A DNA stretch of 64,000 nucleotides from Pararhodobacter marinus (lineage in GTDB: Bacteria; Pseudomonadota; Alphaproteobacteria; Rhodobacterales; Rhodobacteraceae). The position numbers were made by a program, and so were the translations under genes. A model generated the notes under the pieces. It was not told the DNA's origin, ran no database searches, and saw nothing but the letters and a program-made list of their open reading frames with translations. Location of the stretch: contig NZ_QEYD01000005.1 in the NCBI RefSeq assembly GCF_003122215.1, forward strand, positions 186,001-250,000, given 5' to 3'. This document shows positions 22,219 to 24,368 of the stretch, in pieces. Within the stretch, counting starts at the first letter, position 1. The number at the start of each line of letters is the position of its first letter.

Positions 22219-22560
22219 TCAGCAGCGGCGCCCGCGATTGACCGGATCGGCATAGGCCCCGAGATCGCTGTCGGTGCAGACCCGGCGACCCCGGCCCCGA
22301 CCGACCGGATCGGCATAGGCGCCGACATCGCTGTCGGTGATCCCGCTGCGCCCGCGACCGCCGCCGACCGGGTCGGCATAAGCGCCGACATCGCTGTCGG
22401 TGATGCCCGAGCTGCGGATCGTCGTCGTCTCGACACAGCCGGCCAGCGCCGCGGTGCTGCCGAACGTGCCCAGCAGGAAGGCGCGGCGGCCGAAACCGCG
22501 GCTGGTGGTGATCTCGGCGTCGGTCAGCGTGGCTTTCTTGGACTTGGCTGCGTCTGACAT
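22219..22560 (-). CDS. Tat-signal lipoprotein with three 21-residue TDSD repeats (peptide A)
   Basis: A 113-residue protein not recognised as a named family. The N-terminal leader carries a twin-arginine motif (GRRAFLL, residues 24-30) and a lipobox LAGC (39-42), predicting a Tat-exported lipoprotein. The mature part is almost only three tandem 21-residue units (51-71, 72-92, 93-113) of the type SGITDSDVGAYADPVGRGRG. The last unit is diverged, with Cys95 and a terminal Cys113. Leader and repeats match the product of 22720-23043. Roles as a modified peptide or a Ca2+-binding repeat (D-x-D-x-G-x-x-x-D) are both possible. Confidence 0.72.
   Translation of the reverse strand: MSDAAKSKKATLTDAEITTSRGFGRRAFLLGTFGSTAALAGCVETTTIRSSGITDSDVGAYADPVGGGRGRSGITDSDVGAYADPVGRGRGRRVCTDSDLGAYADPVNRGRRC
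22222..22410 (-). repeat. Three tandem 63-bp coding repeats in peptide A
   Basis: Each 63-bp unit encodes one 21-residue repeat. The units are close at DNA level (recurring GACCGGATCGGCATAGGC and ATCGCTGTCGGTGAT segments on the plus strand). This indicates recent in-frame duplication. They are contiguous, without spacers. Confidence 0.9.
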
Positions 22561-22669
22561 GTGTTTACTCTCAATAATGTGTTTCAAGATGGTAACTTTG
22601 GCGGGGAAACCCTTTTGCGTCAAGCCTTTCGCGAAGCCCGGGGGCCGGGGCGCGGGGCCTCTGAAAGCG

Positions 22670-22694
22670 AAACGGACCCGCAGGGGGTCCGTTT
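22670..22694 (-). terminator. Hairpin between the two repeat-peptide genes
   Basis: A perfect 10-bp inverted repeat, AAACGGACCC/GGGTCCGTTT with a 5-base loop, lies 25 bp downstream of peptide B. On the minus strand the hairpin ends in GTTTCGCTTTC, a weak U-rich tail. Probably a terminator separating peptide B from peptide A. Confidence 0.65.
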
Positions 22695-22719
22695 GCCGTT
22701 TGCCATGGGAAGGCGGCGG

Positions 22720-23043
22720 TCAGTCGGTGCCGCCGCGCCCCTGTCCGGCCTGGTCGTAGACCGAGCCATTGTCCGAATCGGTGATCCCCGACGAGCGCCC
22801 GCCCGACCCCCGGCCCCGGCCGGCGGCATCGGCATAGGAGCCGTCGTCATTGTCGGTGAGGCCGGAATAGCCGCGACCGGCCGGATCGGACGGATCGCTG
22901 TCCGAAGCCGCCAGAGCCGCCGTCGCCACCAGCGCGCCGCCGCCGAACGCCCCCAGGAGCAGCGAGCGCCGACCGATCCCGCGACGGGTGGTGATGTCAT
23001 CGTCCTTCAGGGTCTTGCGGTCTTTCTTCGGCGTATCTGTCAT
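22720..23043 (-). CDS. Tat-signal protein with TDSD/TDND repeats (peptide B)
   Basis: A 107-residue paralogue of peptide A. The leaders match (TLKDDDITTRRGIGRRSLLLG against TLTDAEITTSRGFGRRAFLLG). It has a Tat-type RRSLLL motif and a signal peptidase I-like end (TAALAAS, 41-47) in place of a lipobox. The exported part has two clear repeats, SGLTDNDDGSYADAAGRGRG (60-79) and SGITDSDNGSVYDQAGQGRG (85-104). A degenerate first unit, SDSDPSDPAGRG, precedes them. It contains no Cys. It is divergent from the JmjC-type oxygenase gene (128-bp gap). Confidence 0.72.
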   Translation of the reverse strand: MTDTPKKDRKTLKDDDITTRRGIGRRSLLLGAFGGGALVATAALAASDSDPSDPAGRGYSGLTDNDDGSYADAAGRGRGSGGRSSGITDSDNGSVYDQAGQGRGGTD

Positions 23044-23171
23044 TTCACTGGTCCTGTGGGAATTGTTGTATCACTGTAGGATGGAATGCTTCTAATGTTC
23101 CCACGTTGGGTCAACTTCGTTCGCCGGTCAACGAGTCTGTTCAGAAAACCGGCATAAAAAGTGAGTTCGCG

Positions 23172-24368
23172 ATGAAAGATAATACCGACGTCCCCGCGCT
23201 TATGGATTTCCAGAGGGCGATCGCGCCGATCGCGCCCGACACGTTTTTCGCCGAGTATTTCGAAAAGACGCATCTGGTGATCCGCCGGGACGATCCCGAC
23301 TATTACACGCGCGTGCTGTCGCTGGCCGATATCGATCAGGTCCTCACGCAGATGCAGATCCCCGGCGACGAGCTGAACCTCGTGCAGAAGGACCGCACGA
23401 TCACCAAAGACGATTACGTCAACGCCGCGGGTTTCGCGGATCCCGTGCGGATGGTGAAGACGTTTGCCGAAGGCGCGACGATCGTCATGCCGGGTCTGCA
23501 AAAGCGCCTGCCCAAGCTGGCCGCCTATTGCCGCTCGCTCGAGACGGTCTTCAGTTGCGATCTGCAGACCAACATCTATTTCACGCCGCCCGACGCGCAG
23601 GGCTTCAAGACGCATTACGACAGCCATGACGTGATCGTCCTGCAGATCGCCGGATCGAAGACGTGGAACATCTACGAGAGCGACCTGCAATTGCCGTTGC
23701 GCAGCCAGGCCTTCTCGCCCGAAGGGTTCGAGCCGGGCAAGCTGATCGACACGTTCACGCTGCAGGCGGGCGATATGTGCTACGTGCCGCGCGGCGTGGT
23801 GCACGATGCGCGCGCCACCGAAGAGCTGTCCTTGCACATCACCACGGGGCTGCTGTCTCAGCGCTGGATCGAGCTGGTGGTGGATGCGGTCTCGCGGCTG
23901 GCGCTGAGCGATCTCGATTTCCGTCGCGCCGTGCCGCCGGGCTTTGCCAATGGCGATTTCGACCGCACCGATGCGGGCGAGACGCTGGCGGACCTGTTGC
24001 GCCGCGCCGCCGACCGGATCGACGCCGACGCCACGCTCGCCGCCGCGGCCGAGGATTATCGCGGGCGCAGGCTGCCCGTCGTTCCGGGCCAGCTGTTCCA
24101 GCAATTCAGCGCCGAGGCCATCGCGCCGGGGACGCGGATGCGCCGCCGGCCCGACCTGATCCACGCGATCGTCGAAACCGAGGACGAGGTCGCGCTGTCG
24201 GTCTATGGCACCGAGGTGGCCTTCCCGCTACATGTCGCCGAAACCCTGCGCGCGGCGTTGCAATCGGACGGGTTCGTCGTGGGCGAGTTGCCGGGCGATC
24301 TGGACGAGGCGGGGCAGGCGGTGCTGGCACGTCGGCTGGTGGGCGAGGGCGTGCTGTTCATCGGCTGA
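23172..24368 (+). CDS. JmjC/cupin-type Fe(II)/2-oxoglutarate oxygenase (RoxA/YcfD-like)
   Basis: A 398-residue Cupin_4/JmjC-fold protein. The iron ligands are His148 and Asp150 (THYDSHDV, H-x-D) and His211 (PRGVVHDARA). Lys163-Trp165 in GSKTWNIY is the usual 2-oxoglutarate-side strand. The C-terminal about 180 residues resemble the dimerisation/winged-helix part of ribosomal-protein hydroxylases such as E. coli RoxA, which hydroxylates Arg81 of uL16. A ribosomal substrate is thus possible. However, the gene is divergent from two Arg/Asp-rich repeat peptides, which are attractive alternative substrates. The ATG at 23172 was chosen by domain start. Confidence 0.85.
   Translation: MKDNTDVPALMDFQRAIAPIAPDTFFAEYFEKTHLVIRRDDPDYYTRVLSLADIDQVLTQMQIPGDELNLVQKDRTITKDDYVNAAGFADPVRMVKTFAEGATIVMPGLQKRLPKLAAYCRSLETVFSCDLQTNIYFTPPDAQGFKTHYDSHDVIVLQIAGSKTWNIYESDLQLPLRSQAFSPEGFEPGKLIDTFTLQAGDMCYVPRGVVHDARATEELSLHITTGLLSQRWIELVVDAVSRLALSDLDFRRAVPPGFANGDFDRTDAGETLADLLRRAADRIDADATLAAAAEDYRGRRLPVVPGQLFQQFSAEAIAPGTRMRRRPDLIHAIVETEDEVALSVYGTEVAFPLHVAETLRAALQSDGFVVGELPGDLDEAGQAVLARRLVGEGVLFIG

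Follow-up and report, generated by a model that had tools for sequence, protein, structure and literature searches.

A JmjC-type oxygenase gene beside genes for Tat-signal aspartate-repeat proteins in Pararhodobacter marinus: a candidate leader-directed hydroxylation module

The 64,000-nucleotide stretch of the Pararhodobacter marinus genome analysed here (contig NZ_QEYD01000005.1, positions 186,001 to 250,000; hereafter the window) carries two small genes for repeat proteins with twin-arginine translocation (Tat) signals, peptides A and B, divergent from a gene for a predicted Fe(II)/2-oxoglutarate oxygenase of the JmjC_2 family. Because such peptides and the enzyme are so faithfully found together, hydroxylation of the repeats by this enzyme ahead of export is probable; on genomic grounds we assign this claim, whichever residue is modified, a probability of about 0.7. 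That the repeat peptides are substrates of the enzyme appears very likely. The original prediction had proposed the repeats as substrates of the oxygenase. Co-occurrence and adjacency support the view that the two form one module, while Arg can no longer be taken as the obvious target, since three peptides of the family lack [GP]R.

The linkage has been examined in three genome samples. In the family sample (295 genomes), 11 genomes have an enzyme relative at E ≤ 1e-10, nine of them a close one (E ≤ 1e-100), and these nine are the same nine that have peptide matches at E ≤ 1e-4. The peptide gene adjoins the enzyme gene in all nine. In the class sample (385 genomes), the scores of the 50 genomes with an enzyme match at E ≤ 1e-20 are bimodal, with 12 genomes from seven families at E ≤ 1e-80 and 38 genomes between 1.2e-46 and 8e-24. 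The peptide profile A1 matches ten of the 12 close-enzyme genomes and gives one marginal match (G547) among the other 373 (Fisher p = 4e-17), an absence that is not firm because A1 missed two of the 12 adjacent peptides. The two genomes concerned (G536 and G569) encode divergent repeat proteins with closer-spaced Asp residues directly beside the enzyme, and these are picked up by profile A5, which was applied to nine genomes only and does not recover the marginal G547 match. A peptide gene lies directly beside the enzyme gene in 11 of the 12. In the twelfth, G494, the enzyme reaches a contig end and another contig opens with that same end, after which comes a peptide gene, and adjacency is inferred from the overlapping ends. 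The phylum sample (329 genomes) holds eight close enzymes at E ≤ 1e-130, with three new genomes, all of which have adjacent peptides.

Among the outcomes that the original prediction named as refuting it were repeat peptides occurring mostly without the oxygenase and oxygenase orthologues conserved where peptides are absent. No convincing peptide was found in the sampled genomes lacking a close enzyme, and every inspected close relative of the enzyme has an adjacent peptide gene (by inference in G494). Around the distant enzyme relatives, flanks of up to 1.5 kb, some of them cut by contig ends, contain no such peptide at any of 23 loci; for the 38 class genomes with distant enzymes only, the loci of 18 were inspected for peptides. 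One open reading frame (ORF) with three loose D-x-D matches (L083) was dismissed by eye. The loci L005-L007 were found through the peptide, among the matches listed, and do not count as independent support for linkage from enzyme to peptide. A search of plasmids with one long repeat protein as the query gave no match. Further peptide genes lie off the enzyme's contig in G144, G084, G297, and G523, and the presence of peptide genes on other contigs in several genomes suggests that one enzyme may serve several substrates. In the genome of P. marinus itself, the family profile matches peptides A and B alone at E ≤ 1e-3.

The features of the locus are as follows (coordinates within the window).

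22720..23043, minus strand: peptide A gene, a 107-residue Tat-signal repeat protein with three D-x-D units
22993..23013, minus strand: peptide A leader motif TLKDDDI, preceding the Tat twin arginine (alignment A1)
22906..22992, minus strand: peptide A twin-arginine signal, RRSLLLG... and AxA region, read from the sequence
22723..22905, minus strand: peptide A repeat region
22219..22560, minus strand: peptide B gene, a 113-residue Tat-lipoprotein-like repeat protein with three D-x-D units
22510..22530, minus strand: peptide B leader motif TLTDAEI
22435..22509, minus strand: peptide B twin-arginine signal with terminal lipobox LAGC, read from the sequence
22222..22434, minus strand: peptide B repeat region
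23044..23171: divergent region of 128 bp between peptide A and the enzyme
23172..24368, plus strand: predicted JmjC_2 (PF08007) Fe(II)/2-oxoglutarate oxygenase, 398 residues
23613..23621, plus strand: enzyme H148-Y149-D150, with two iron-triad ligands (H148 and D150 the same in 34 of 34 rows)
23802..23804, plus strand: enzyme H211, the third iron ligand (34 of 34 rows)
24222..24365, plus strand: enzyme C-terminal segment PGDLD...RRLVxEG, candidate leader-recognition part

The anatomy first described for this locus, namely two paralogues with matching leaders, exported parts made of repeats, and a divergent JmjC oxygenase with a complete H148/D150/H211 triad, holds up: the ORFs are in place, the leader pattern holds, each exported part has three D-x-D units, and the enzyme matches PF08007. 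Peptide B starts at the ATG at 22560 and stops at 22219-22221, and a 134-residue form would require a TTG start. The enzyme ORF is open from 23106, and the ATG at 23172 is favoured by the starts of relatives. A scan of the 128-bp divergent region for sigma-70-like or terminator-like sites found none. The ratios of nonsynonymous to synonymous substitution rates (dN/dS) against the close relative L005 are 0.065 for peptide A, 0.091 for peptide B, and 0.107 for the enzyme, and against the more distant L006 they are 0.169, 0.324, and 0.290, respectively; a pseudouridine-synthase row was out of frame and was left out of this comparison. A chance origin of the repeat is rejected on these values together with the alignment A1 of relatives. 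A larger conserved operon has also been rejected on an all-against-all ORF comparison around 38 stretches, in which no ORF family besides the enzyme, its antisense shadow, and the peptides is common to more than five. The flanking genes vary between groups and resemble housekeeping genes by eye, only a few having been run against Pfam.

The enzyme matches JmjC_2 with E = 9e-25 and 87.1 bits, against a curated cut-off of 22, and its iron triad is invariant in all 34 aligned rows, the window enzyme included. Its best solved relatives are 2xdv (1.2e-31, by single sequence) and 4ccn (6.8e-53, by profile). Ordered by sequence, the solved relatives are NO66 and MINA53, then YxbC, then the "cupin 4 family protein" and the L16 arginine hydroxylases, and the profile scores are 6.8e-53 for NO66, 2.9e-15 for the "cupin 4 family protein" 4csw, and 1.3e-9 for the L16 arginine hydroxylases. 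In a tree of 50 enzymes, the 26 peptide-linked proteobacterial rows fall in one group (support 98/91), which also contains a long-branch Rhizobium etli plasmid protein. A Streptomyces clavuligerus protein and two cyanobacterial proteins adjoin this group (fork 93/85, order unsettled), and a long branch leads to a separate group of 14 distant alphaproteobacterial relatives. Gly226 of the enzyme occupies what we take to be the site of MINA53 Ser257 and NO66 Ser421, mapped by hand on a sequence alignment. By the same hand mapping, all 23 peptide-linked rows have Gly at this position, as do eight of 11 other rows. The accessible text of PMC9994133 describes these serines as hydrogen-bonded to the substrate His. 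Of the exported residues counted, 0.5% are His, which makes histidyl hydroxylation of the peptides unlikely.

Peptides A and B have no family in NCBIfam and no match above a Pfam cut-off, in agreement with the original prediction, which knew of no named family for them; peptide B has only a sub-threshold Pfam match. Pfam matches to Tal-1A_2A, suprabasin repeats (28.5 bits, cut-off 31), and UCR_Fe-S_N have been dismissed as sub-threshold. The leaders of A and B, TLKDDDITTRRGIGRRSLLLG and TLTDAEITTSRGFGRRAFLLG, share the shape TL-x-D-x-[DE]-I followed by the twin-arginine signal. Peptide A has an AxA-type cleavage region, read by eye, and peptide B is read as a Tat lipoprotein because of its lipobox LAGC, also seen by eye. 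Among 50 family peptides, RR occurs within the first 100 residues in 49, the S. clavuligerus peptide being the exception; these Tat signals are predicted from the pattern, with the position of RR after the leader judged by eye. A lipobox pattern picked ten peptides, seven of which are counted as real lipoproteins by reading; in L056, L059, and L151, the pattern fell on the Cys of CPRG and was rejected. One protein, L135 (5358-6197), combines the repeats with a C-terminal PG_binding_1 domain (E = 1.7e-18) and lies on a different contig from the enzyme of its genome (G441). In one group of the family (L055, L056, L057, L058, L059, and L060), the first unit has CPRG instead of GRG and the peptides are Cys-terminated, suggesting a disulfide or another ligand set.

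Repeat statistics have been collected from 50 peptides (48 by coordinates, two by pattern, one from S. clavuligerus), some read stop-to-stop, so a few residues ahead of the true start may have been counted. They contain 248 D-x-D anchors, with up to 14 in one peptide. A third Asp (D3) follows in 237 of the 248 anchors (179 at +6 and 50 at +3), part of which is expected by chance in Asp-rich sequence since the rule took five offsets. Among the 237 units, Gly is found at D3+3 in 207 and at D3+5 in 217. The peptides of G618 (contig C15) and G494, which lie beside close enzymes, and that of S. clavuligerus have an exported part without [GP]R and retain D-x-D...D, the last having no Arg anywhere in its sequence. 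The smallest core that the peptides share is D-x-D...D, and Asp is favoured over Arg as the target because these three peptides retain it. Asp is thus the most likely hydroxylation site, although we put its chances no higher than even.

The leader motif ([TSRK]L-x2/3-[DEQA]-I) is found in 39 of the 50 peptides, 35 by pattern and four more by eye. At the 27 loci with an enzyme row, this motif goes together with a C-terminal enzyme motif around RRLVxEG: 21 loci have the two and six have neither. Four rows were scored present by eye, three for RLTD-type leaders (L060, L128, and L130) and one for the C-terminal motif (L152). A survey of RRE-like folds fused to the JmjC family PF08007 places bacterial homologues in RiPP-like contexts, RiPPs being ribosomally synthesised and post-translationally modified peptides (PMC12710340, accessible text). 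Recognition of the leader by the C-terminal domain of the enzyme would fit this pattern, and we regard it as an evenly balanced proposition.

Based on these observations, we propose that a cytoplasmic JmjC_2-type Fe(II)/2-oxoglutarate oxygenase may recognise the N-terminal motif TLxDxDI of small repeat proteins, perhaps by means of its C-terminal domain, and would hydroxylate their tandem [T/S/A]-D-x-D-(5 or 2 residues)-D units, most likely at Asp. The modified proteins would then be exported by Tat and kept in the cell envelope in soluble, lipid-anchored, or, in one case, peptidoglycan-binding form. Since no signal peptide is visible by eye in the enzyme and the peptides carry Tat signals, any modification should precede Tat export, with the product staying in the envelope. 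Metal ions may be bound by the resulting clusters of hydroxylated carboxylates, a tentative suggestion that we hold to be less probable than not. A precursor gene beside the modifying enzyme and co-occurring with it is the arrangement of RiPP systems, and the module may extend RiPP-like, leader-directed modification to repeat proteins exported by Tat. In its fullest and equally tentative form, the proposal would describe a hitherto undescribed class of envelope proteins scattered through the Alphaproteobacteria, in which up to a dozen or so tandem Asp units are hydroxylated by a leader-guided cytoplasmic JmjC enzyme for multivalent metal binding, with a RiPP-type leader adapted to Tat.

Several points weigh against this proposal. 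The enzyme and peptide cut-offs were chosen after the score gap was seen, the reach of profile A1 is incomplete, as noted, and the adjacency in G494 is indirect. In G011, a contig end splits the enzyme gene. Twelve further family genomes have peptide matches of 7e-4 to 9e-3 and no close enzyme; these weak matches were treated as chance, and one of them (L061) was inspected. The leader motif is missing from 11 of the 50 peptides. The six loci without either motif (G536, G569, G616, G530, G432, and G297) form one clade (100/100), so the correlation between leader and enzyme C-terminus may reflect a single event. The third-Asp count carries the chance component already given. Finally, Arg is found at D3+6 in 210 of the 237 units and may therefore be the target in most members.

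This last count is one ground for supposing that the enzyme hydroxylates the conserved Arg of the GRG segment, with Asp only holding the fold or binding Ca2+, an explanation compatible with hydroxylation of the repeats before export. Precedents exist in JMJD5, an arginyl C-3 hydroxylase, and the YcfD-type enzymes, which act on uL16, according to the accessible parts of the sources, and in BipG and PbsQ, which act on Orn in RiPPs (PMC12707348 and PMC12257519, accessible text). An Arg target is nevertheless unlikely, given the three peptides without [GP]R, one of them without any Arg, and given that the enzyme profile is nearer to NO66 than to 4csw or the L16 arginine hydroxylases.

Hydroxylation of the repeats has also to be weighed against the view that the repeats are unmodified units for binding Ca2+ or another metal and that the oxygenase acts elsewhere, for example on a ribosomal protein. 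D-x-D-x-G-x-x-x-D resembles Ca2+-binding loops, and the enzyme's sequence relatives MINA53, NO66, and YcfD have ribosomal proteins as substrates, as far as the accessible parts of the sources describe them. Against this stand the finding that peptide and enzyme genes occur together and side by side in several families whose flanks differ, and the absence of any match at E ≤ 1 to Pfam Ca2+-repeat families in peptides A and B and eight other peptides. Close enzyme relatives occur in just nine of the 295 family genomes, a patchy distribution that argues against a housekeeping role, and a housekeeping ribosomal oxygenase has been rejected on this basis. The replacement of the MINA53/NO66 substrate Ser by Gly in the peptide-linked rows, shared by most of the other rows in the same hand mapping, points the same way. 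We consider an unmodified repeat with a separate enzyme target very improbable; Ca2+ binding as such is compatible with hydroxylation. Least probable of all is an enzyme that is mainly a chaperone or sensor, binding the nascent repeat protein before Tat export and reporting oxygen or iron status by hydroxylation instead of building a metal site: the lack of a visible signal on the enzyme, the Tat-signal partner, and the leader motif ahead of the Tat signal are in line with it and give no direct evidence, and against it are the lack of another family common to more than five of the 38 stretches and the arrays of up to 14 D-x-D, which in our opinion look like products and not sensors.

Distant relatives of the enzyme have been followed into other neighbourhoods. 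Both distant family enzymes sit in RiPP-type clusters. In G250 (L049:1810-6514), a JmjC_2-like enzyme lies between a LanM-type synthetase and a Nif11-domain peptide (precursor), and in G286 (L050:4870-13265), two JmjC_2-like enzymes accompany a radical SAM/SPASM protein, a TfuA-YcaO fusion, and a candidate precursor ORF. Among 81 plasmid records with enzyme matches, five loci were opened, two of which (R. etli and Pseudanabaena) carry RiPP-type genes. The R. etli plasmid pRetIE4803b (L144:2224-6149) has a JmjC protein, a small peptide, and a radical SAM/SPASM protein in a row. On a Dolichospermum plasmid (L145:3694-6179), the enzyme relative is downstream of a 71-residue peptide, a candidate precursor that combines a GG-type leader with a short stretch of repeated RSSAQL. 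A Paraburkholderia plasmid locus with three cupin genes, a ThiF-like protein, and major facilitator superfamily transporters showed no clear precursor. On the S. clavuligerus plasmid (L143:4799-6194), the enzyme WP_009999494, 35.9% identical over 97%, lies beside the 48-residue peptide WP_009999493, which has the leader motif SLEPDEI and two ADxDPxDP units; genes for an S9 peptidase and an ABC transporter come next, and the locus looks like a RiPP cluster. A scan of viral contigs gave three distant enzyme relatives.

If borne out, the module would give a group of bacterial JmjC oxygenases a defined substrate family, suggest many-site hydroxylation within one exported repeat protein, and link RiPP-style leader recognition with Tat export. 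With only two or three genes, its substrate, site, and role are directly testable. No description of Tat-exported Asp-repeat proteins with a JmjC partner was found among the papers listed in searches of the open-licence literature.

Compared with known systems, the enzyme has the same JmjC domain and iron triad as the ribosomal histidyl hydroxylases MINA53 (RIOX2) and NO66 (RIOX1), and it differs from them in having Gly226 (by the hand mapping) at the site of the Ser that contacts the substrate His and in being paired with His-poor peptides. The S. clavuligerus locus has the same leader-type motif and D-x-D units, and differs by the lack of a Tat signal and of the Gly/Arg segment. Human AspH, as described in the accessible literature, is likewise a 2-oxoglutarate oxygenase that hydroxylates Asp/Asn in repeated extracellular modules, the epidermal growth factor (EGF)-like domains, but belongs to another structural subfamily of oxygenases. 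The EGF-like fold of its substrates also differs from the repeats here. FIH, another JmjC enzyme, has been reported to accept Asp, according to the part of the source available. BipG and PbsQ, JmjC or cupin-like hydroxylases of biphenomycin-type RiPP pathways that act on Orn, resemble the present system in that an oxygenase modifies a ribosomally made precursor; they are set apart, by description only, as members of multi-enzyme antibiotic pathways with proteolytic release, and the accessible text mentions no Tat signal or tandem repeat (PMC12707348, PMC12257519). The fusions of RRE-like folds to PF08007 involve the same JmjC family, and the accessible text names no substrate family for them (PMC12710340). 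Asp beta-hydroxylation is itself known in RiPPs, where the accessible text attributes it to another enzyme class (PMC13060819).

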